64,000 nucleotides of DNA from Allostella sp. ATCC 35155. Its GTDB lineage: Bacteria; Pseudomonadota; Alphaproteobacteria; ATCC43930; Allostellaceae. Below, piece by piece: positions 12,400 through 23,384 of this stretch. The stretch lies in contig AP019701.1 in the NCBI GenBank assembly GCA_006738865.1, positions 2,352,001-2,416,000 on the forward strand. The letters are read 5' to 3'. The position numbers were made by a program, and so were the translations under genes. Numbering within the stretch: position 1 is the stretch's first letter; every line of letters begins with the position of its first letter. The notes beneath the pieces are model-generated. The model was not told where the DNA came from and searched no databases. It saw only the letters and a program-made list of their open reading frames with translations.

Positions 12400-13176
12400 C
12401 TATACGATGAACTGGCTGAGCGGGCGCACCGCGATGCCAGCCTCGTCGAGGCGGCGGCGCAGCAGCTGCGCCATGGCGACGGCGCCGGCGGTGTCGCTGT
12501 GGACCGAAACGGTGTCGATGGCGACCGGAATCCGCTTGCCGGAGACGCTGCGCAGCGCGCCATCCGCGATGAAGTCGATCACCCGCTGTGCGCTCTCCTC
12601 GGCATCATGGAGGATCGCGCCCGGCAGCGCCCGTGAGACGAGGTTGGCATCGTCGTCATAGGCGCGGTCGGCGAAGATTTCGCGGGCAACCGGCAGGCCG
12701 GCCTTTTCGCCCGCGCGCTCGAGCTCGGTGTTCGGCATCGCCATCAGGATCAGCCGGCGATCGACGGCGCGCACCGCGCGCGCGATGGCGTCGGCCATGT
12801 CGGCGTCGATGCAGGCCATGTTGGACATCGCGCCGTGCGGCTTGACGTGGCTGACGCGGTGGCCCGCCACCTGCGCCATCGCCTGCAGGGCGCCCAGCTG
12901 ATAAACGACCGTCTTCTCCAGGTCGGCGGGGCGCTCGCCGACGATGCGCCGGCGACCGAACCCCCAGAGATCGAAGAAGCCGGGATGGGCGCCGACATCG
13001 ACGCCGTTGGCCTTGGCCGTCGTCACCGTCTCGTGCATGACCAGCGGGTCGCCGCCATGGAAGCCGCAGGCCACGTTGGCGGAGGTGACGATCGACAGCA
13101 TCGCCGCATCGTCGCCCATGCGGTAGGCACCGAAGCCTTCGCCCATGTCGGAATTGATGTCGATGGTTCTGCTCAT
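12400..13176 (-). CDS. pxpA: 5-oxoprolinase subunit PxpA (LamB/YcsF family)
   Basis: A 258-residue LamB/YcsF protein with the family signature DINSDMGEGFG (residues 6-16), NVACGFHGGDP and GAHPGFFDLWGFGRR. PxpA is the subunit of prokaryotic ATP-dependent 5-oxoprolinase that, with PxpB and PxpC, cleaves 5-oxo-L-proline to glutamate. The ATG at 13176 has GGAGA nine bases upstream. It is divergent from the TRAP transporter whose operon ends in pxpBC, so the three subunits flank a transporter. Annotation as a lactam-utilisation protein is the older name. Confidence 0.93.
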   Translation of the reverse strand: MSRTIDINSDMGEGFGAYRMGDDAAMLSIVTSANVACGFHGGDPLVMHETVTTAKANGVDVGAHPGFFDLWGFGRRRIVGERPADLEKTVVYQLGALQAMAQVAGHRVSHVKPHGAMSNMACIDADMADAIARAVRAVDRRLILMAMPNTELERAGEKAGLPVAREIFADRAYDDDANLVSRALPGAILHDAEESAQRVIDFIADGALRSVSGKRIPVAIDTVSVHSDTAGAVAMAQLLRRRLDEAGIAVRPLSQFIV

Positions 13177-13265
13177 GGCCTGAAATCTCCGGTTGCGGGC
13201 CGCAGACCGTTCGGGATCGGGGGCTTCGCCGTCAAGCCGGTCGTCCCGCACTGCGGCAACGGGCC

Positions 13266-13295
13266 TTGACCATGGCTCGGCACCACGCGAACAAT
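13266..13295 (+). promoter_or_regulatory. Candidate promoter for the TRAP-pxpBC operon
   Basis: TTGACC (13266-13271) is followed after 18 bp by AACAAT (13290-13295), in the 203-bp gap between the divergent pxpA and the TRAP binding-protein gene. The predicted leader is about 78 nt. Hexamers match consensus at five and four positions. Confidence 0.4.
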
Positions 13296-13379
13296 GGATG
13301 CAGCAGGGGCGCGCGGCAACAAGGTCCGCCAGGGACCGGCCCGTCGGCACGCTTCACATCCAGGCGAGGGGAGACAGGA

Positions 13380-14348
13380 ATGAGAAAGATTCTGACGGCG
13401 GCCGCCGTGGTGGTCGTCGCGTCGGCCGGCACGGCGGCGGCGCAGACCAAGTGGAACATGCCGACCGCCTATCCGGACAGCAACTACCACACCCAGAATG
13501 TCCGCTGGTTCGCCGACGAGGTGAAGAAGGCGACGGATGGCAAGCTCGAGATCGTCGTCCATTCGGGCGCCTCGCTGTTCAAGATGCCGGAGATCAAGCG
13601 CGCGGTGCAGACCGGCCAGGTGCCGATCGGCGAAATCCTGCTGTCGGCCTACGGCAACGAGGATCCGGTGCTCGAGGTCGACGGCCTGCCGTTCCTCGCC
13701 GCCGGCTACGACCAGGCCTGGAAGCTGTACCAGGCCCAGCGCGCGACCCTGCAGGGCAACCTCCAGAAGCAGGGCCTGTTGATGCTGTTCTCGGTCGCTT
13801 GGCCGGGGCAGGGCGTCTACTCCAAGAACCCGATCAATTCCCTCTCCGACTTCAAGGGCGTCAAGTTCCGCGCCTACAACGCGGTGACGGCCCGGCTGGC
13901 GGAACTGATCGGCGCGCAGCCGGCAACCGTCCAGCAGGCGGAGGTGCCGCAGGCGTTCTCCGCCGGCGTCATCAGCGCGATGATCACGTCGGGCGCCACC
14001 GGCGTCGACACCAAGGCGTGGGAGTTCTCCAAGTACTTCTACGAGACCGAGGCGATGCATCCGCGCAACGGCGTGCTGGTGAACCAGCGTGCGTTCCGCC
14101 GCCTGCCGGAAGAGCAGCAGCGCATTCTCCTCAACATCGCCGAGCTGGCCGAGAAGCGCGGCTGGGAGCTGATGCAGAAGGTTTCCAACGACACCAAGGC
14201 GACCCTGGCCAAGAACGGGATGACCGTCGCGGCGCCGCCGGCCGCCCTGCAGGCCGAGTACAAGAAGATCGGCTCGGCCATGGTGGCCGAATGGGAGAAG
14301 AAGGCCGGCGCTGCGGGCGCCGCCATCATCAAGGCATACCGCCAATAG
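13380..14348 (+). CDS. TRAP transporter substrate-binding protein, DctP family
   Basis: A 322-residue periplasmic protein with a Sec signal peptide (about 1-22, ending AAA-Q). The mature part has the DctP/SiaP fold: KFRAYNAVTARLAELIGAQPATV includes the conserved ligand-binding Arg, and MITSGATGVDTKAWEFSKYFYETE is the second-lobe motif. ATG 13380 is preceded by GAGGGGAGACAGGA. It feeds the DctQ/DctM membrane partners that follow. Position between the pxp genes suggests 5-oxoproline or a related acid as ligand, which is inference only. A stable hairpin follows the stop. Confidence 0.92.
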   Translation: MRKILTAAAVVVVASAGTAAAQTKWNMPTAYPDSNYHTQNVRWFADEVKKATDGKLEIVVHSGASLFKMPEIKRAVQTGQVPIGEILLSAYGNEDPVLEVDGLPFLAAGYDQAWKLYQAQRATLQGNLQKQGLLMLFSVAWPGQGVYSKNPINSLSDFKGVKFRAYNAVTARLAELIGAQPATVQQAEVPQAFSAGVISAMITSGATGVDTKAWEFSKYFYETEAMHPRNGVLVNQRAFRRLPEEQQRILLNIAELAEKRGWELMQKVSNDTKATLAKNGMTVAAPPAALQAEYKKIGSAMVAEWEKKAGAAGAAIIKAYRQ

Positions 14349-14360
14349 GGCGGCTGTCCG

Positions 14361-14392
14361 AGCGGGCCGGCGCCGAAAGGGGCCGGCCCGCT
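14361..14392 (+). terminator. Intercistronic hairpin after the TRAP binding-protein gene
   Basis: An 11-bp stem (14361-14371 with 14382-14392) with a 10-nt loop lies between the binding-protein and small-permease genes. It may protect or partly terminate the upstream message so that more binding protein than permease is made. Confidence 0.55.
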
Positions 14393-14438
14393 TCGATTCT
14401 GGCTCCGGCCATCCGGCCGGACCCGCGGAGGGGGGCGG

Positions 14439-14987
14439 ATGCGGCGATTTCTCGACGGCCTCTACTGGACCAGCGGCGTGATCGGCTGCGTCTTCATGGT
14501 GGGCATCGCGGCGATGATCACGGCCCAGATCGTCGGCCGCATTGCGGGATTCCAGGTGCCGTCGGCCGATGACATCTCGGGCTACTTCATGGGCGCCTCG
14601 ACCTTCTTCGCACTGGCCTACGCGCTGCGGCGTGGCGGCCATATCCGGGTCGAGCTGCTGCTCCAGCGCCTCGGCGGCGGCATGCGGCGCGTGGCCGAGG
14701 TCTGGTCGCTGGGCGCCGCGACGCTGCTCAGCGGGTACGCGGCCTGGTGGTGCACCTTCCTGACGTGGGAATCCTACGAGCTGGGCGACGTCTCGCCGGG
14801 GATCATCGCCATTCCGCTGTGGCTGCCGCAAATCTCGATGTGCGCCGGGCTGATCCTGCTGACGATCGCGCTGCTCGACGATCTCGTCCGCGTCCTCTGC
14901 GGCGGTGCGGCGTCCTATGCCACCGCCGGTTCTACCCTGCTGGAATCCGATCGACTGGGCGACGCCGTCGCCCGCGACGCGCGCTGA
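14439..14987 (+). CDS. TRAP transporter small permease, DctQ family
   Basis: A 182-residue protein with four predicted membrane helices: the first near residues 11-30, then one each around 50-66, 85-105 and 125-148. This is the size and topology of DctQ. The family motif region ADDISGYFMGASTFFALAYALRRGGHIRVELL is clear. It forms the membrane complex with the large permease encoded 14 bp downstream. The ATG has GGAGGGGG just upstream. Confidence 0.9.
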   Translation: MRRFLDGLYWTSGVIGCVFMVGIAAMITAQIVGRIAGFQVPSADDISGYFMGASTFFALAYALRRGGHIRVELLLQRLGGGMRRVAEVWSLGAATLLSGYAAWWCTFLTWESYELGDVSPGIIAIPLWLPQISMCAGLILLTIALLDDLVRVLCGGAASYATAGSTLLESDRLGDAVARDAR

Positions 14988-15001
14988 AGGGAACGCTCCC
15001 C

Positions 15002-16303
15002 GTGGATCTCGTCGCGGTCGCCATCCTCCTCATCCTCATCCTCTTCGCGCTGCTCGGCAGCGGCATCTGGGTCGCCCTGTCCCTTCTCGGGACGGCGCTG
15101 ATCGCGATGGAGTTCTTCGCCGGAACCGAGACCGGCACCGTCATGGCGACCAAGATCTGGGACTCGACCACCGGCTGGACGCTGACGGCACTGCCGCTCT
15201 TCATCTGGATGGGCGAGATCCTGTTCCGAACCCGGCTGTCGGAGGACATGTTCGAGGGCCTCGCCCCTTGGATGGCGCGCCTGCCGGGGCGCCTGCTGCA
15301 CGTCAACATCATCGGCTGCGGCATCTTCGCGGCGGTGTCGGGTTCCTCGTCCGCCACGGCCGCCACCATCGGCAAGATGTCGCTGCCGGAGCTGACGCGC
15401 CGGGGCTACGACGAGGGCATGGCCATCGGCACCCTGGCCGGATCGGGCACGCTCGGCCTCATGATCCCGCCCTCGATCATCATGATCGTCTATGGCGTCG
15501 CCGCCGACGTCTCGATCGGCAAGCTCTTCATCGCGGGCGTCTTTCCGGGCGTGATGCTCGTCCTGCTCTTCATGGGCTATGTCGGGATCTGGGCGAAGCT
15601 CAACCCGACCCGGGTGCCGCCGGCGGACGCCGACTACGGCTTCATGCAGCGCCTGTGGGCCTCGCGCCGGCTGATCCCGGTCGTCCTGCTCATCGTCGGC
15701 GTCATCGGCTCGATCTATGGCGGCGTCGCGACGCCGACGGAGGCAGCCGCGCTCGGCGTGGTCGGGGCGCTGCTCCTGTCCGCGGCCACCGGAACGCTGA
15801 ACCGCAAGAGCTTCGGCCAGAGCCTGATGGGCGCGACCATCACCTCCTGCATGATCGCCTTCATCTTGGCGGGGGCGGCCGTCCTGACCATCGCGATGGG
15901 CTTCACTGGCATTCCGCGGGCGCTCGCCGGCGCCATCGGCGAGCTGGGGCTGAGCCCCTGGATGCTGCTGTTCGCGCTCACGCTCGTCTACATCGTGCTC
16001 GGATGCTTCCTCGACGGGATCTCGATGGTGGTGCTGACCACTTCCGTCGTCCTGCCGATGGTGCAGGCGGCCAACATCGACCTGCTGTGGTTCGGCATCT
16101 ACATCGTCCTCGTCGTCGAGATGGCGCAGATCACGCCGCCGGTCGGGTTCAACCTATTCGTGCTGCAGGGCCTGACCGGCAAGAACATCTTCCGCATTGC
16201 CGCCGACACGGCGCCCTTCTTCGGCCTGATGGCGGTGGGCGTGGTCCTGCTCTGGTTCTTTCCCGCGATCGCGACGTGGCTGCCGGCCCAGATGATCCAG
16301 TAG
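15002..16303 (+). CDS. TRAP transporter large permease, DctM family
   Basis: A 433-residue DctM protein with about 12 membrane segments. Typical motifs are ALPLFIWMGEIL, AVSGSSSATAATIGKM, LAGSGTLGLMIPPSIIMIVYG and the C-terminal EMAQITPPVGFNLFVLQG. It carries the Na+-coupled transport pathway. I use GTG 15002 with GAAGGGAA upstream; the next gene, pxpB, appears to start inside its last codons. Confidence 0.92.
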   Translation: MDLVAVAILLILILFALLGSGIWVALSLLGTALIAMEFFAGTETGTVMATKIWDSTTGWTLTALPLFIWMGEILFRTRLSEDMFEGLAPWMARLPGRLLHVNIIGCGIFAAVSGSSSATAATIGKMSLPELTRRGYDEGMAIGTLAGSGTLGLMIPPSIIMIVYGVAADVSIGKLFIAGVFPGVMLVLLFMGYVGIWAKLNPTRVPPADADYGFMQRLWASRRLIPVVLLIVGVIGSIYGGVATPTEAAALGVVGALLLSAATGTLNRKSFGQSLMGATITSCMIAFILAGAAVLTIAMGFTGIPRALAGAIGELGLSPWMLLFALTLVYIVLGCFLDGISMVVLTTSVVLPMVQAANIDLLWFGIYIVLVVEMAQITPPVGFNLFVLQGLTGKNIFRIAADTAPFFGLMAVGVVLLWFFPAIATWLPAQMIQ

Positions 16304-17022
16304 CGGCGCCCGGCCACGGCGCGCCGCGGGTTCGCCCGGCCGGCGATGCGGCGCTGACCGTCGAACTGGGCGACACCGTCGATCCGGTGGTGAACCGGCG
16401 CGTGCTGGAGTTCGACCGCCGGGTCCGGGCGAGCGGCCTGCCGGGCCTGCTGGAGAGCGTGCCCACCTATCGCTCGCTGTTCGTGCAGTACGATCCCGGC
16501 GCCGTCGCATTCGACGCGCTCGCCGCCGCCCTGCTGGCGCTGGTTCCGGACGGCGACGTCCCGGCCGAGGGACGGCGATGGGTCTTCCCGGTCTGCTACG
16601 GCGGCGAGCATGGCGAGGATCTCGGCCATGTCGCAGGAACCCACGGGTTGACCGCCGAGCAGGTGGTCGCGGCGCATCTGGCGGCCGAGTATCGCGTCTA
16701 CATGATCGGGTTCGCGCCGGGATTCGCCTACATGGGCGGCCTGCCGGAGCTGCTGCACACCCCGCGGCGGGCCAGCCCGCGGCTGCGCATCCCGGCCAAT
16801 TCGGTGGCGATCGGAGGCGTCCAGGCCGGGATCACCTCGATCCCCGTGCCGAGCGGCTGGCACCTGCTGGGCCGCACTCCGGCAAGGATGTTCGACCTCG
16901 CCCGCGGCGACGACGCATTCCTGCTGGCGGCGGGCGACATTGTCCGGTTCGAGCGGATCGATACCGCGACCTTCGCTGCGCTGGAGGGCGCGGACGGCCC
17001 CGTCGCCCGCCGGGTCGGCTGA
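16276..17022 (+). CDS. pxpB: 5-oxoprolinase subunit PxpB (allophanate hydrolase subunit 1 family)
   Basis: The protein has the KipI/AHS1 fold: PAGDAALTVELGD near the N-terminus, VCYGGEHGEDL in the middle, and the signature IGFAPGFAYMGGL followed by PRLRIPANSVAIGG. With PxpA and PxpC it forms ATP-dependent 5-oxoprolinase. The start is uncertain: GTG 16276, overlapping dctM by 28 nt, is the only plausible start codon before the conserved region (248 residues). No clear Shine-Dalgarno is seen, so translation is probably coupled to dctM. pxpC follows 7 nt after the stop. Confidence 0.88.
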   Translation: MAAGPDDPVAAPGHGAPRVRPAGDAALTVELGDTVDPVVNRRVLEFDRRVRASGLPGLLESVPTYRSLFVQYDPGAVAFDALAAALLALVPDGDVPAEGRRWVFPVCYGGEHGEDLGHVAGTHGLTAEQVVAAHLAAEYRVYMIGFAPGFAYMGGLPELLHTPRRASPRLRIPANSVAIGGVQAGITSIPVPSGWHLLGRTPARMFDLARGDDAFLLAAGDIVRFERIDTATFAALEGADGPVARRVG

Positions 17023-17029
17023 GGTTCGC

Positions 17030-18043
17030 ATGGATGGGCTGCGCGCGATCGACCCCGGTCTGCTGGCGACCGTGCAGGATGCGGGACGCTATGGCTGGCA
17101 GCGGTTCGGCGTCGTCGTCGCCGGCGCGATGGATCTGGCCGCCTATCGCACGGCCAACGCGCTGGTCGGAAACGATGCCGACGCGGCCGCCGTCGAGTTG
17201 ACCCTGACGGGCGGCCGCTGGGAGATCGCGGGTCAGCCGCGACGGGTGGCCGTGACGGGCGCGGAGTTCGCCATTGCCGTCGATGGTCGTCCGGTCCCGG
17301 CATGGTGCTCGTTCGTCCTGCGGGCGGGAGAGAGCCTGACCATCGGCCGCGCGCCGGACGGCGTACGCGGCTATCTCGCGGTCTCCGGCGGGATCGCCGT
17401 GCCGCCCGTGCTCGGCAGCCGGTCGACGCATGTGCGCTCGGGCATCGGCGGCCTCGATGGTCGGGCGCTGCGGGCGGGTGACCGGTTGCCGCTGGGTGAT
17501 GCGGGGGAGGGGCCGGAGCTGGAACTGCCGGCCGAGGCGCGCTGGCCCCGGGCGCCGCGGCTGCGGGTGGTGCTCGGCCCCCAGGACGGGCATTTCGGGC
17601 CGGACGCGATCGCCGCGCTGACCGGAGAGGCCTTCCCGGTGACCGCGGAGGCCGACCGCATGGGCTACCGGCTGGCTGGGCCGCGGCTGCGCCATCGCGG
17701 CAGCGACAACATCGTTTCCGACGGGATCGCGCTCGGCAGCATCCAGGTGCCGGCGAGCGGACATCTCATCCTGCTGCTCGCCGACCGCCAGCCGACGGGC
17801 GGCTACCCGAAGATCGCGACGGTCGTGACGCCGGACATCGGGGCCGTCGCGCAGGCCGCGCCGGGCGCGAACCTGCAGTTCGAGGCGATCGGGCTCGATG
17901 CGGCCCGCGCGCTGCGCCGGGACTGGGACGCCCATCTCGCGAGCCTGTCCGCCCGGATGCGGCCCGCGCAGTCGGGCAATCCCTACGACAGTGCCCGCCT
18001 GCTGGGCCTCAACCTCGTCGGCGGCGTGGTCGCCGGCGAGTAG
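17030..18043 (+). CDS. pxpC: 5-oxoprolinase subunit PxpC (biotin-dependent carboxyltransferase-like, AHS2 family)
   Basis: A 337-residue AHS2/KipA protein with the N-terminal signature TVQDAGRYGWQRFGVVVAGAMD and C-terminal DRQPTGGYPKIATVV. Together with PxpB it forms the carboxyltransferase-like half of 5-oxoprolinase. It ends the TRAP-pxpBC operon and is convergent with a Sel1-repeat gene one base away. Older annotations call this family urea amidolyase-related; the pairing with pxpA and the absence of a urea carboxylase nearby favour the oxoprolinase role. Confidence 0.92.
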   Translation: MDGLRAIDPGLLATVQDAGRYGWQRFGVVVAGAMDLAAYRTANALVGNDADAAAVELTLTGGRWEIAGQPRRVAVTGAEFAIAVDGRPVPAWCSFVLRAGESLTIGRAPDGVRGYLAVSGGIAVPPVLGSRSTHVRSGIGGLDGRALRAGDRLPLGDAGEGPELELPAEARWPRAPRLRVVLGPQDGHFGPDAIAALTGEAFPVTAEADRMGYRLAGPRLRHRGSDNIVSDGIALGSIQVPASGHLILLLADRQPTGGYPKIATVVTPDIGAVAQAAPGANLQFEAIGLDAARALRRDWDAHLASLSARMRPAQSGNPYDSARLLGLNLVGGVVAGE

Positions 18044-18044
18044 G

Positions 18045-18425
18045 TCAGTAGCGGCCGCGCCGCCCGCTGCGGTAGTCGCCGGCCCGTCGCATCCCTTCTT
18101 CGATCTCGGCCTGGCTCATCGTCGGCCCGATCGACTGGATCGCTTCGGCAGCCGTCCGGTCGCCCTTGTTGGCCGCGATCGACAGCCACTTGTAGGCCTC
18201 GGCCCTGTCGACGGGGACGCCGGTGCCCTCGGCATAGAACGCACCGATGCGATATTGGGCGCGGGTCATGCCGCTCTGGGCCAGCGGCATCCAGTGGCTG
18301 AAGGCGCAGGAGAAGTCGTTGATCTCGTAGCACCGCAGGCCCGCCGAATAGCTCTGGGCCGAAGCGGCGGCGGGGGTGGCGAGGGCGATCGCCGAGGCGA
18401 GAAGGGCAACGGAACGCATCCGCAT
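18045..18425 (-). CDS. Secreted Sel1-repeat (SEL1/TPR-like) small protein
   Basis: A 126-residue protein with a signal peptide (about 1-23, ASA-Q) and one to two Sel1-like repeats, seen as RAQYRIGAFYAEGTGVPVDRAEAYKWLSIAA. Sel1 repeats mediate protein contacts in the periplasm, but the partner here is unknown. ATG 18425 has AAGGAG nine bases upstream; a second ATG lies two codons in. Two cysteines (C32, C39) in the mature part could form a disulphide. Confidence 0.8.
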   Translation of the reverse strand: MRMRSVALLASAIALATPAAASAQSYSAGLRCYEINDFSCAFSHWMPLAQSGMTRAQYRIGAFYAEGTGVPVDRAEAYKWLSIAANKGDRTAAEAIQSIGPTMSQAEIEEGMRRAGDYRSGRRGRY

Positions 18426-18443
18426 GGTCGGGGCTCCTTGGGT

Positions 18444-19403
18444 CTATTCAGCGGCCATCGGCGCGGGGCGTCCCATCTCGGCGAGGCGCCGGCGCAGCCG
18501 GGCCAGGAGGTTGTCCAGTTCCGCCCGGTCAATGGCATCGAGCGACGGTCCGGGCGCGCGTGTCCTGGCGGTCGCTATAACGCCGTTGCGCCACAGCAGT
18601 TCCTTGCGGATGGCGAGGCCGAAGCCCGGCTGCTGCTCGTGCCGGACGAGCGGCAGGTAGGCGTCGAACAGATCCTCGGCTGCCTCCATGTCGCCCGCGG
18701 CGGCCAGCCGGCAGACCTCGACCAGCATCTCGGGCACGCCGAACCCGGTCATGCAGCCGTCCGCGCCGCGTCGCAGCTCCTGCATCAGATAGAGGCCGCC
18801 ATTGGCGGTCAGGATGCTGACCCGCCGGCGCAGCCCCTGGGCCTCGTCGCCGCGCAGGCGCGACAGCTTGCGCATGCCGGGGCAGTCCTCGTGCTTGAAG
18901 ACGCAGATGCTCGGGATCTCCCGGATCAGGCGGTCGATCGTGGCAACCGACATCCAGACCTGCGAGGCGGGCGGATAGTCCTGCAGGACGATCGGCACCG
19001 AAGTGCCGACTTCGGCCACGTAGCCCTCGTAGAAGGCGTGGACCTGATCCTCGGTGCGCAGCCCGACGGGCGGCGACAGCATGACACCGCCGGCGCCGAG
19101 ATCCATCGCCGCCCGCGTCAGGTCGCCGGCGAGGCGGTGGCCGGGGGCGCTGACGCCGACCACCACCGGCACCTTGCCCGCGACGCGCTTCACGACCTGC
19201 GCGGTGAAGCGCGTGCTCTCCTCCAGGCTCAGCTTGCTGGCCTCGCCCATGATGCCGAGGATGGTGAGCCCATCGACGCCGCAGCCCAGATAGTAGTCGA
19301 CCATCCGGTCGGTCGATTCGAGATCGAGGTCGCCATTCTCCGCGAAGGGAGTGGCGGAGATGATCCAGACCCCTCGGGCCTTGTCGTCGATGAGCTTGGC
19401 CAT
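18444..19403 (-). CDS. Dihydrodipicolinate synthase (DapA)-family aldolase/dehydratase
   Basis: A 319-residue TIM-barrel class I aldolase of the DapA/NAL family. The Schiff-base Lys lies in CVFKHED and the catalytic Tyr in VLQDYPP, with the phosphate/substrate loop GIMGEASKLS. The usual GTTGE motif reads GIMGE, so it is probably not true DapA but an enzyme for a sugar-acid or keto-acid substrate. It lies 4 bp downstream of another DapA-family gene in the same direction; the two are only distantly alike. Confidence 0.85.
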   Translation of the reverse strand: MAKLIDDKARGVWIISATPFAENGDLDLESTDRMVDYYLGCGVDGLTILGIMGEASKLSLEESTRFTAQVVKRVAGKVPVVVGVSAPGHRLAGDLTRAAMDLGAGGVMLSPPVGLRTEDQVHAFYEGYVAEVGTSVPIVLQDYPPASQVWMSVATIDRLIREIPSICVFKHEDCPGMRKLSRLRGDEAQGLRRRVSILTANGGLYLMQELRRGADGCMTGFGVPEMLVEVCRLAAAGDMEAAEDLFDAYLPLVRHEQQPGFGLAIRKELLWRNGVIATARTRAPGPSLDAIDRAELDNLLARLRRRLAEMGRPAPMAAE

Positions 19404-19407
19404 GGCG

Positions 19408-20352
19408 TCAGGCCGCGATCGGGCGCTGCTTCAGGACCGGCGCGAACTGCGGCAGCGCCTCGAGCTTGCCGAGCAGTTCGGACTCCTGGGCCGCCGACAG
19501 GGCGCGGTTGGGCGGCAGGATGTTGGCCCAGCCCTTGTCGCCGGTGATGCGCTGCATGACGGACTTCAGCCCGGCGATCGGCGGATAGGCCTGGAGCGTC
19601 AGGCGGGTCTGCGTCAGTTCCTCCTGCAGGCGGTCGGCCTCCGGGCTCTGCCAGGCCTGGTAGACCTTCTGGGCGAGCGGGCCGGTGACGTTGGTCGTCG
19701 CCGAGATGCAGCCGACGCTGCCGGCGCGCAGGTTGGGCAGCAGGAACTGCTCGGAGCCCGAGAAGACGCCGAAGCCGGGGAAGGTCTTGATGAAGGCTTC
19801 GGTGTTGTCCCACTTGCCGGAGCTGTCCTTGAGGCCGGCCACCGTTTCGCCGGGATAGGCCTTCTTGAGGCGCTCGACGAGCGAGAGGGTGATCGGGATC
19901 ACCGCCTGCTGCGGGAAGTGATAGAGGTACATGCGCAGCCGCGCGTCCCCGACCCGCTGCGCCACCTCCGAGAAGAAGGCGAAGAGGCCGTCCTCGTCGA
20001 CGTTCTTGTAGTAGAAGGGCGGCAGCAGCAGCACGCCGGCAGCTCCCGAGGAGACCGCGGCGCGGGACAGGCGGACGGCGTCGGCCAGCGAGCAGGAGCC
20101 GGTGCCGAAGATGGTGCGGCCGCCCGGCAGTCCCGCCTCGGCCGAGGCCTCGATCAGCTTCAGACGCTGGTCGACCGACAGCGAGTTCGCCTCGCCCGTG
20201 GTGCCGAGCGGCGCCAGCCCGTCGCAGCCATTGGCGAGGAGCCAGCGCGAATGGGCGATGAACGCCTTCACGTCCGGCTCGAGGTTGGCGTCGAACGGCG
20301 TCAGGACGGCGGCATAGACGCCCTGGGGACGGGTGCTCTCGGACGTGGCCAT
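19408..20352 (-). CDS. Dihydrodipicolinate synthase (DapA)-family protein
   Basis: A 314-residue DapA-family TIM barrel. It has the substrate motif PLGTTGEANSLS, the Tyr-bearing YLYHFPQ and the Schiff-base Lys in AGLKDSSGKWDNT. Members outside lysine synthesis act on 2-keto-3-deoxy acids, trans-o-hydroxybenzylidene pyruvate and similar substrates; the substrate here is unknown. ATG 20352 has AGAGGAAG upstream. It is divergent from the hydantoinase gene, and both DapA-type genes may be regulated together with it. Confidence 0.85.
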   Translation of the reverse strand: MATSESTRPQGVYAAVLTPFDANLEPDVKAFIAHSRWLLANGCDGLAPLGTTGEANSLSVDQRLKLIEASAEAGLPGGRTIFGTGSCSLADAVRLSRAAVSSGAAGVLLLPPFYYKNVDEDGLFAFFSEVAQRVGDARLRMYLYHFPQQAVIPITLSLVERLKKAYPGETVAGLKDSSGKWDNTEAFIKTFPGFGVFSGSEQFLLPNLRAGSVGCISATTNVTGPLAQKVYQAWQSPEADRLQEELTQTRLTLQAYPPIAGLKSVMQRITGDKGWANILPPNRALSAAQESELLGKLEALPQFAPVLKQRPIAA

Positions 20353-20447
20353 GGAGGCTTCCTCTTTTCCGGGGGGAGGCTGGATACTCCTGAGGTACCA
20401 GAATTCGCGGCCTCCGGCAAAAGCCGTGCGGCGCGGGACGTGCCCGG

Positions 20448-20453
20448 TATAAT
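20448..20453 (+). promoter_or_regulatory. Consensus -10 element upstream of the hydantoinase gene
   Basis: A perfect TATAAT lies 52 bp before the hydantoinase ATG in the 153-bp divergent gap. No good -35 hexamer is seen at 16-18 bp upstream, which suggests activator dependence or an extended promoter. The sequence between it and the ATG includes GGGGAG as a ribosome-binding site. Confidence 0.4.
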
Positions 20454-20505
20454 CGCTGCATAATCCAGCCTGTCTGCCGTCAGGCGCCGCCCCGGGGAGC
20501 CCCTC

Positions 20506-21966
20506 ATGTCCGCCTTCGATCTCGTCATCCGCAACGGCCGCGTCGTCACCGCGTCCGACCAGTTCGATGCCGACGTGGGCGTGAAGGACGGCGTCGTGGT
20601 GGCCCTCGGCCGCGAGCTGGAGCGCGGCGTCCGGGACATCGACGCGGCGGGGCGGCTGGTGCTGCCCGGCGGCGTCGACAGCCATTGCCACGTCGAGCAG
20701 CAGTCCTCGAGCGGCGTCATGACAGCCGACGATTTCTACACCGCCACGCGCTCGGCCGCCGGCGGCGGCACGACGACGATCATTCCCTTTGCCGCCCAGC
20801 ATCGCGGCATGTCGCTGCGCCAGGTGGTGCGCGACTACCACGAGTGCGCGACGCCGAAGGCGGTCGTCGACTATGCCTTCCATCTCATCGTCTCCGACCC
20901 GACCGAGACGGTCCTGGGGCAGGAGCTGCCGGCGCTGATCGCCGACGGCTACACCTCGTTCAAGATCTATACGACCTACGACATGCTGAAGCTGAACGAC
21001 CGGCAGGTGCTGGACGTTCTCGCCATCGCCCGGCGCGAGGGTGCGCTGACGATGGTCCATGCCGAGAACCACGACATCATCGCGTGGCTGTCCGACAAGC
21101 TGACCGACGCGGGCCTGACGGAGCCCAAGTTCCATGCCGTCGCCCATGCCCGCACCGCCGAGCGCGAGGCGACGCACCGCGTCATCTCCCTGGCGGAACT
21201 GGTCGACGTGCCGGTGCTGATCGTCCATGTCTCGTCGGCCGAGGCGATCGAGCAGATCCGCATCGCCCAGAGCCGCGGCACCCGCGTCTTCGGCGAGACC
21301 TGCCCGCAATACCTCTATTTGACCGAGGACGACCTGGATAAGCCCGGCTTCGAAGGCGCTAAGTGCATGTGCAGCCCGCCGCCGCGCGACAAGGCCAACC
21401 AGCAGAAGGTCTGGGATGCGATCGCCCAGGGCGTCTTCCAGGTCTTCTCGTCCGACCATGCGCCCTACCGGTTCAACGATCCGGAGGGGAAGATGAAGCA
21501 CGGCACCAACCCGCCCTTCAAGAAGGTGGCCAACGGCGTGCCGGGCCTGGAGGCCCGCCTGCCGCTGCTGTTCCACGGCATCTCCGAGGGGCGGATCGAC
21601 CTGCACCAGTTCGTCGCCCTGGCCTCGACCAACGCCGCCAAGCTCTACGGCCTCTATCCGCGGAAGGGCACGATCGCGATCGGCGGCGACGCCGACATCG
21701 CCATCTGGGACCCCGACAAGGAGGTCACCATCCGCCAGGCCGATTTCCACGACGCCATGGACTACACGCCCTACGAGGGCCTGATGGTGAAGGGCTGGCC
21801 CGTCGTGACGATCTCGCGCGGCGAGGTCGTGGCCGAGGACGGCAAGGTGACGGAGGAGCGCGGCCGCGGCCGCTTCCTGCCCTGCGAGCGCTCGCCGCTC
21901 GCCCGCTCGACGGGCCGGCGCATCACCGGCTTCGATCCCGTCTCCGGCCGCCTGCCGGGCCTCTGA
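20506..21966 (+). CDS. D-hydantoinase / dihydropyrimidinase
   Basis: A 486-residue cyclic amidohydrolase. Metal ligands include H60 and H62 (DSHCH) and the carboxylated Lys at about 153 in SFKIYTTYD. Further ligand regions are [18 protein letters not shown] and SSDHAPY. The enzyme opens 5-substituted hydantoins or dihydropyrimidines to N-carbamoyl amino acids. An N-carbamoyl-D-amino-acid hydrolase is encoded 0.5 kb downstream and a hydantoin-racemase-like gene 4.8 kb downstream, so hydantoin degradation to D-amino acids is the likely job. Dihydropyrimidinase activity remains possible. Confidence 0.92.
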
Positions 21967-21982
21967 TGCTGGCGGCGTCGTG

Positions 21983-22414
21983 ATGCTGGCAGGCCATCTC
22001 GCGCTGGCGGTCGCCGCGGCGTTCGCGGGCGCGGCCGTCTATATCAACGTCGCCGAGCAGCCGGCGCGATTGAAACTCGACGACCGCGGGCTGCTGACGC
22101 AGTGGAAGCCGGCCTATCTGCGCGGCTTCGCCATGCAGGCGTCGATGGCGGTCATCGGGGGCGCGCTGGCGCTGGTCGCCTGGTGGCAGAGCGATGACGC
22201 GGCCTGGCTCGTCGGCGGCCTGCTGTTGCTGGCCAACTGGCCCTACACGATGCTCGGCATCCTGCCGACGAACCGTATCCTGATGGCGACCGACCCGGCT
22301 GCGGCTGGGCCCGCCACCCGCGCCCTCGTCCGTCGATGGGGCGCTCTCCATGCCGTTCGCAGTGCGCTCGGTCTTGCCGCTGTGGCGGCATGCCTGATCG
22401 CACTGTCCCGATGA
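21983..22414 (+). CDS. DUF1772 family integral membrane protein
   Basis: A 143-residue protein with four hydrophobic helices (about 4-22, 45-65, 70-90 and 120-140). The motifs [12 protein letters not shown] and [16 protein letters not shown] are characteristic of DUF1772 (anthrone-oxygenase-like) proteins. Function is unknown in bacteria. It lies between the hydantoinase and carbamoylase genes with short spacers. ATG 21983 was chosen over the adjacent GTG at 21980. Confidence 0.82.
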
Positions 22415-22448
22415 ATCGTCGTTTTCCAGATCGATCGAGGTGACCCGA

Positions 22449-23384
22449 ATGTCTCGCTTGTTGACCGTGGGGGCGGCCCAGCTCGGCCCCATCCAGCGCG
22501 CCGATAGCCGCCCGCAGGTGGTCAAGCGCCTGCTCGACCTGCTGCGCGAGGCGCATTCGCGCGGCGTCCAGCTGGTGGTGTTCCCCGAACTCGCGCTCAC
22601 CACCTTCTTTCCGCGCTGGATGATGGAGGATCCGAACGAGATCGACTCCTTCTTCGAGCGCGAGATGCCGAACGCCGACGTCCAGCCGCTGTTCGACGAG
22701 GCCAAGCGGCTCGGCATCGGCTTCTATCTCGGCTATGCCGAACTGGTGGAGGAGGAGGGGCGGACCTGCCGCTTCAACACCTCGATCCTGGTCGGTCCCG
22801 ACGGCAACCTCGTCGGCAAGTACCGCAAGATCCACCTGCCGGGCCATGCCGAGTACGAGCCGCAGCGTCCGTTCCAGCACCTCGAGAAGCGCTATTTCGA
22901 GATCGGCAATCTCGGCTGGCCGGTGTGGCGTGCGTTCGGCGGCATCATGGGCATGGCGATCTGCAACGACCGCCGCTGGCCGGAGACGTTCCGCGTCATG
23001 GGCCTGCAGGGTGTCGAACTCGTAATGCTCGGCTTCAACACGCCCGAGTTCAACGCGTCGATCGTCGAGCCCGGCTACCACCGCATGATGCACCACTACC
23101 TGACCTGCCAGGCGGGTGCCTACCAGAACGGCACCTGGGTCGTCGCAGTCGCCAAGGCCGGGATCGAGGAAGGCTGCATGCTGATCGGCGGCAGCTGTGT
23201 CGTCGCGCCGTCGGGCGAACTCGTCGCGGTCGCCTCGACCCTGGGGGACGAGCTGCTCGTCTACACCATGGATCTCGACGCCACGGTGCCGATCAAGACC
23301 AGCGTCTTCAACTTCGCCAAGCACCGGCGGCCCGAGCATTACGGGATGATCGTCGAGCGCACCGGCGCCATCCCGCCGCCGTGA
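22449..23384 (+). CDS. N-carbamoyl-D-amino acid hydrolase (nitrilase superfamily)
   Basis: A 311-residue nitrilase-fold enzyme. The catalytic triad is at E47 (FPELALTTFFPRW), K127 (GKYRKIHLPGH) and C172 (MAICNDRRWPE), positions matching Agrobacterium D-carbamoylases. FQHLEKRYFE and the C-terminal HRRPEHYG are also diagnostic. It hydrolyses N-carbamoyl-D-amino acids to D-amino acid, CO2 and ammonia, the step after hydantoinase. ATG 22449 has GAGGTGA seven bases upstream. Confidence 0.95.
   Translation: MSRLLTVGAAQLGPIQRADSRPQVVKRLLDLLREAHSRGVQLVVFPELALTTFFPRWMMEDPNEIDSFFEREMPNADVQPLFDEAKRLGIGFYLGYAELVEEEGRTCRFNTSILVGPDGNLVGKYRKIHLPGHAEYEPQRPFQHLEKRYFEIGNLGWPVWRAFGGIMGMAICNDRRWPETFRVMGLQGVELVMLGFNTPEFNASIVEPGYHRMMHHYLTCQAGAYQNGTWVVAVAKAGIEEGCMLIGGSCVVAPSGELVAVASTLGDELLVYTMDLDATVPIKTSVFNFAKHRRPEHYGMIVERTGAIPPP

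Follow-up and report, generated by a model that had tools for sequence, protein, structure and literature searches.

Gene content of the locus

In the 64,000-nucleotide stretch of Allostella sp. ATCC 35155 DNA analyzed here (the window), the genes for a TRAP transporter stand between pxpA and pxpBC, which specify the subunits of 5-oxoprolinase. This raises the question of whether the transporter imports 5-oxoproline (pyroglutamate), the substrate of that enzyme. A preliminary description had read the locus as pxpA diverging from dctP-dctQ-dctM-pxpB-pxpC, and this reading of the genes is borne out by Pfam and NCBIfam matches (Table 1). The genes and their order are thus directly observed. DctP, DctQ and DctM all score above their Pfam cut-offs and constitute a TRAP transporter of the DctPQM type; DctM is also above the NCBIfam dctM cut-off, and DctQ has no NCBIfam match. 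The GTG start of dctM (15002) was read from the sequence. There are 14 bases between dctQ and dctM and 7 between pxpB and pxpC, and no regulator gene is present between pxpA and pxpC.

We propose that this locus is very likely a scavenging unit for pyroglutamate, in which uptake would be followed by ring opening to glutamate. DctP would bind pyroglutamate in the periplasm, with R164 clasping the carboxylate, DctQM would move it into the cell using a cation gradient, and PxpABC would open the ring with ATP to yield glutamate. Cation-gradient transport by TRAP systems, the mechanism of PxpABC and the role of the arginine are known from these families; the ligand, its transport and its ring opening in this particular organism are what we infer from sequence.

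Table 1. Features of the pxpA/dctPQM-pxpBC locus, in positions of the window
Feature	Position	Strand	Remarks
pxpA, 5-oxoprolinase subunit A, 258 aa	12400..13176	minus	Pfam LamB_YcsF 4.6e-94, 315 bits
Divergent intergenic region pxpA/dctP	13177..13379		203 bases
dctP, TRAP solute-binding protein, 322 aa	13380..14348	plus	Pfam DctP 129 bits
dctP-dctQ gap with predicted hairpin	14349..14438	plus	90 bases
dctQ, TRAP small membrane subunit, 182 aa	14439..14987	plus	Pfam DctQ 4.2e-24, 85 bits
dctM, TRAP large membrane subunit, 433 aa, GTG start	15002..16303	plus	Pfam DctM 1.7e-83, 281 bits
pxpB, 5-oxoprolinase subunit B, probable GTG start	16276..17022	plus	Pfam CT_C_D 2.6e-69, 233 bits
pxpC, 5-oxoprolinase subunit C, 337 aa	17030..18043	plus	Pfam CT_A_B 1.6e-89, 300 bits

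The solute-binding protein

Comparison of DctP with the PDB using phmmer gave 93 sequences at an E-value of 0.001 or better, the best 60 of which were used here. The top three are set well off from the rest, namely 2pfz (DctP6; E-value=1.1e-101, 53% identity), 2pfy (DctP7; 1.1e-97, 50%) and 6wgm (marine; 3.5e-70, 42%), the next match being at 8.6e-21. Pyroglutamate appears in the PDB title of each of the three. An AlphaFold2 model, for which the input was 35 sequences (the window's DctP and its relatives from 34 of the 80 loci described below), had a mean pLDDT of 92.3, with the signal region (residues 1–18) unsure. Its rmsd was 0.9 to both 2pfy and 2pfz and 1.2 to 6wgm, and the structure matches had E-values of 1.4e-35 or better for the top three and 5.3e-24 for the next.

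Residues E85, N93, E94, R164, S204 and T207 are invariant in all 103 family sequences, comprising the window's DctP, 99 relatives from the 80 loci and the three solved chains. Of the 20 other DctP matches in this genome, seven distant paralogues were compared: R164 is found in five of them, N93 and T207 in one each, and E85, E94 and S204 in none. A conserved arginine of TRAP receptors has a role in carboxylate binding, according to the available text of PMC4646407. By its nearest structures, which are well separated from other receptors, and by its shared residues, the carboxylate arginine R164 included, DctP belongs on sequence and model comparison to a group whose closest solved members bind pyroglutamate. 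The genome has 21 DctP matches at an E-value of 1e-5, and since the runner-up is 28% identical to the window's DctP, the latter looks like the genome's sole receptor of this group.

Comparison with known systems

Rucktooa et al. (2007, J Mol Biol 370:93) reportedly described two pyroglutamate-binding receptors of Bordetella pertussis, DctP6 and DctP7. With binding proteins of this type known since that year, the locus is a neat example but a fairly ordinary one. The structures of both receptors were solved with 5-oxoproline (5-OP), as given in the available sections of PMC13274462, and the KD of DctP7 for pyroglutamate is stated there and in the accessible part of PMC11668362 to be 0.3 uM. The window's DctP is similar to DctP6 (BP1887, 2pfz) and DctP7 (BP1891, 2pfy) from end to end and has the six invariant residues in common with them. 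The surroundings differ, since in Bordetella a eukaryotic-type 5-oxoprolinase gene lies near the receptor genes (PMC13274462, same sections) and the TRAP membrane components seem to be mutated (PMC5812351, in the text available), whereas here we find pxpABC together with open dctQ and dctM genes. The same sections of PMC13274462 state that gene neighbourhood supports TRAP-type 5-OP uptake in some bacteria, and that it was not possible to demonstrate utilization of 5-OP in B. pertussis. The preliminary description knew of no characterized 5-oxoproline TRAP system. This is incorrect for receptors, DctP6 and DctP7 being such, but may hold for a whole transporter because of the undemonstrated utilization (PMC13274462) and the seemingly mutated membrane components (PMC5812351) in B. 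pertussis, as far as the available text of both papers goes. Within the accessible portions of the open-licence literature on pyroglutamate/5-oxoproline TRAP systems, we found neither a description of one encoded with pxpABC nor a report of demonstrated transport by one.

The pyroglutamate-specific receptor from a marine metagenome (6wgm) also resembles the window's DctP, but is more distant than DctP6 and DctP7. Its nearest relatives by identity are the receptors of locus L024 (49.0%) and of Tistrella (L057, 48.7%), and the tree places it together with the latter (94/92, branch not starred). Among other transporters, the PxpT-PxpABC system of Corynebacterium glutamicum (PMC13274462, available sections) is like the window in that a dedicated 5-oxoproline importer, in the window a predicted one, is encoded with PxpABC. 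It differs in that PxpT, a secondary carrier from the APC superfamily, consists of one protein, as opposed to a three-part TRAP system, and in that a GntR regulator adjoins it, no regulator gene being present between the window's pxpA and pxpC.

The 5-oxoprolinase subunits

All three subunits of PxpABC are represented, by LamB_YcsF, CT_C_D and CT_A_B domains. PxpA matches the NCBIfam subfamily models NF003814 (360 bits, cut-off 226) and NF003816 (231.5, cut-off 213), and is below the equivalog cut-offs (266 of 392, 246 of 337 and 222 of 378). PxpB scores 178 bits against the equivalog TIGR00370, above its cut-off of 146, and PxpC is above the cut-off of the domain model TIGR00724 and below that of the equivalog NF045499 (236 bits, cut-off 500). 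These equivalog cut-offs are a naming rule, and we did not regard them as defining PxpABC. The window's enzyme would be expected, from its subunit composition, to carry out ATP-dependent opening of 5-oxoproline. The genome yields a single match to LamB_YcsF (pxpA) and a single one to CT_C_D (pxpB); both genes are therefore single-copy, and no second PxpABC set was found there. Hydantoinase_B has 14 matches, so a further oxoprolinase elsewhere in the genome is possible.

Related loci in other genomes

Species genomes were scanned for relatives of DctP. This gave 91 loci, the best 80 of which were retained, with near-copies and short contigs among them. Matches to both dctQ and dctM are present in 76. 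The pxp genes occur in 25, of which 23 have pxpA, pxpB and pxpC, and two have part of the set (L010 with pxpB and pxpC; the short contig L071 with pxpA and pxpB). Nine others contain a Hydantoinase_B-type gene, and in 46 of the 80 neither was found within the stretches examined. For the 53 loci longer than 20 kb, the corresponding numbers are 19 with the full pxp set, one with a partial set, eight with Hydantoinase_B and 25 with neither. By simple arithmetic from one pxpA per 5.3 Mb, pxpA would lie inside a 20-kb window with a chance of about 0.4%, a figure which assumes a single pxpA where some relatives have two. The linkage of pxp genes to the receptor is far above chance, though many rows are close kin.

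Import of 5-oxoproline by the TRAP system, which the preliminary description had suggested, is the best-supported reading, given that the three nearest structures are pyroglutamate receptors and that 25 of the 80 loci have pxp genes and nine others Hydantoinase_B. Against it stand the 46 loci with neither, including the 25 among those longer than 20 kb, and the scores of PxpA and PxpC under the NCBIfam equivalog cut-offs.

In 23 of the 80 loci the pxp genes form a block on the strand opposite to dctPQM. Sixteen of these are from Comamonadaceae, four from Alcaligenaceae and three from others, at least 21 being from Betaproteobacteria, and one is without pxpC in its short contig. They have the same receptor family and pxp genes as the window, but differ in the orientation of the pxp block and in that their PxpA and PxpB form, in the trees, a lineage separate from that of the window's genus. 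In Skermanella, dctPQM-pxpBC are together and the two pxpA genes are elsewhere. The exact order pxpA/dctPQM-pxpBC was found only in the window's genus, among the 80 loci and the pxpA stretches of its whole order.

We also considered independent origins of the pxp link. In a first DctP tree the seven paralogues lay on very long branches, in two places, and only near neighbours were used. A paralogue-free tree needs two changes, but its starred branches force only one, and independent origins were accordingly rejected as a conclusion. An AU test rejecting one clade says little because unlinked Comamonas rows are inside the group; gene order and the separate PxpA and PxpB lineages are the better argument for an independent link.

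In eukaryotic-type oxoprolinases the Hydantoinase A and B domains are in one chain. Six of the nine Hydantoinase_B open reading frames found near DctP relatives are 1194–1215 aa long, the others being of 850, 582 and 582 aa. Two of the proteins were scanned; both combine a Hydantoinase A and a Hydantoinase B domain in a single polypeptide and are below every NCBIfam cut-off. The gene after dctPQM in Tistrella codes for a Hydantoinase A/B protein of 1213 aa, the closest solved relative of which is named N-methylhydantoinase and the second 5-oxoprolinase. We would give even chances to the proposition that an intact pyroglutamate TRAP system between pxpA and pxpBC is the first in which PxpABC-coupled uptake could be shown, with PxpABC and the fused Hydantoinase A/B proteins as interchangeable partners. 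With the membrane-subunit genes open and the genes of the ring-opening enzyme at the same locus, uptake can be tested directly, and its demonstration would supply a probable name for a large set of alpha- and betaproteobacterial TRAP receptors.

An alternative is that the substrate of the transporter is a related compound, such as a proline betaine, hydroxyproline or D-pyroglutamate, and that the adjacent pxpABC repairs or uses a downstream lactam. We think this unlikely, even though a Hwanghaeella receptor 60–61% identical to the window's (L011, 5601–17933) lies within 10 kb of genes for an MTTB-family protein and for FAD oxidoreductases, one of the latter GcvT-linked, in a genome with no LamB_YcsF (pxpA) match. 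These surroundings suggest that close relatives of DctP may carry other ligands, and the receptor group need not be limited to pyroglutamate. However, the three nearest solved receptors are all titled pyroglutamate, and Q77, which is conserved in the pxp-linked set and in the three solved proteins (91 of 103 sequences overall), is replaced by R in the Hwanghaeella-type relatives, this being one among many differing columns. Pyroglutamate is the ligand that we favour for the window's DctP.

As to the Hwanghaeella locus itself, chromate-transporter-type and EamA-type genes lie between dctM and the MTTB gene. The MTTB and FAD oxidoreductase genes, the GcvT-linked one with a GcvT-like domain, hint at a betaine-like ligand there. 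In a different variation, 19 of the 80 loci (L060, L063, L067 and 16 more) have a tandem dctP pair ahead of one dctQ-dctM pair, that is, two receptors per membrane pair. Eleven of these are from Roseomonadaceae, five from Acetobacteraceae and three are unplaced; the short contig L084 has no dctM match.

Distribution within the genus and order

The preliminary description had called for a search for the same gene order in other genomes. Two other genomes from the genus, one of them that of S. vacuolata, share it, with DctP identities of 83–86%, but, as noted above, it was found nowhere outside the genus. The large open reading frame upstream and the Sel1 and DHDPS genes downstream are conserved in both, and the downstream hydantoinase is conserved in S. 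vacuolata, the other stretch ending before that gene. Both have a 520–521-aa gene after pxpC that is absent from the window. Since the surroundings are syntenic too, conserved order within the genus is no evidence of coupling, and we rejected it as such. In one more genome of the genus, no match to pxpA was found.

In the window's order of bacteria, pxpA was found in 16 of 43 genomes, at 20 places. The 19 places besides the window's were examined, two being the genomes of the same genus just described and 17 belonging to a sister family. None of the 17 sister-family stretches (3.3 to 17 kb) contains dctP, dctQ or dctM at an E-value of 1e-5, and nine have a bare divergent pxpA/pxpBC pair. This suggested an insertion of dctPQM into such a pair, but the PxpA tree does not back it: PxpA of the window's genus groups with four lone pxpA and one Skermanella pxpA (SH-aLRT 85, not starred), and not with the PxpA of the divergent pairs.

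That the transporter and oxoprolinase are adjacent by chance, PxpABC only clearing internally formed 5-oxoproline, seems very improbable, for although PxpABC without a TRAP neighbour is common, none of the 17 sister-family pxpA stretches having a TRAP match, and although synteny in the genus extends beyond the locus in all three genomes, pxp genes adjoin the same receptor family in distant genomes, namely as a separate PxpABC lineage in the 23 mainly betaproteobacterial loci and as dctPQM-pxpBC in Skermanella.

Four sister-family stretches (L116, L117, L118 and L120; 3.7 to 13 kb) have a pxpA 58–63% identical to that of the window and no pxpB or pxpC match. Ten chosen proteins near sister-family pxpA genes include one NMT1-type ABC receptor (L130) and no TRAP part. 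Regulators near these pxpA genes are of the LysR (L119) and GntR (L129) types.

Gene junctions, noncoding elements and flanking genes

The preliminary description had dctM and pxpB overlapping. GTG 16276 is the only ATG, GTG or TTG in the pxpB frame that precedes the conserved N-terminus and is no more than 60 bases from the dctM stop, and pxpB probably starts there, which would give an overlap of 28 nt; there is no clear Shine-Dalgarno sequence. In S. vacuolata the dctM stop reads GTGA, a 4-nt overlap, and in the third genome of the genus an ATG follows 4 nt past dctM. It is therefore the tight spacing that is conserved, and not the exact overlap, which in the window is plausible but depends on a putative GTG start.

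A sigma-70-like site, TTGACC-N18-AACAAT, is located at 13266–13295 on the plus strand and is also present in the two other genomes of the genus. One site of this type occurs in 13100–18100, where shuffled sequences predict 0.3. It is promoter-like by consensus match and conservation only, which does not imply function. Upstream of it, the stretch GTCAAGCCG is likewise retained in the genus and could belong to a minus-strand promoter. Between dctP and dctQ, a strong RNA hairpin is predicted at 14346–14440 (MFE -62.4 kcal/mol, z -3.06; 2 of 200 shuffles were as good), which might possibly lower expression of the membrane subunits relative to that of the receptor.

Downstream of the locus (18045–23384) there are a Sel1-repeat gene, a DHDPS-family gene at 18444–19403, a second DHDPS-like stretch at about 19702–20352, a dihydropyrimidinase (20506–21966, by NCBIfam) and an open reading frame which by eye is carbon-nitrogen-hydrolase-like (22440–23384).
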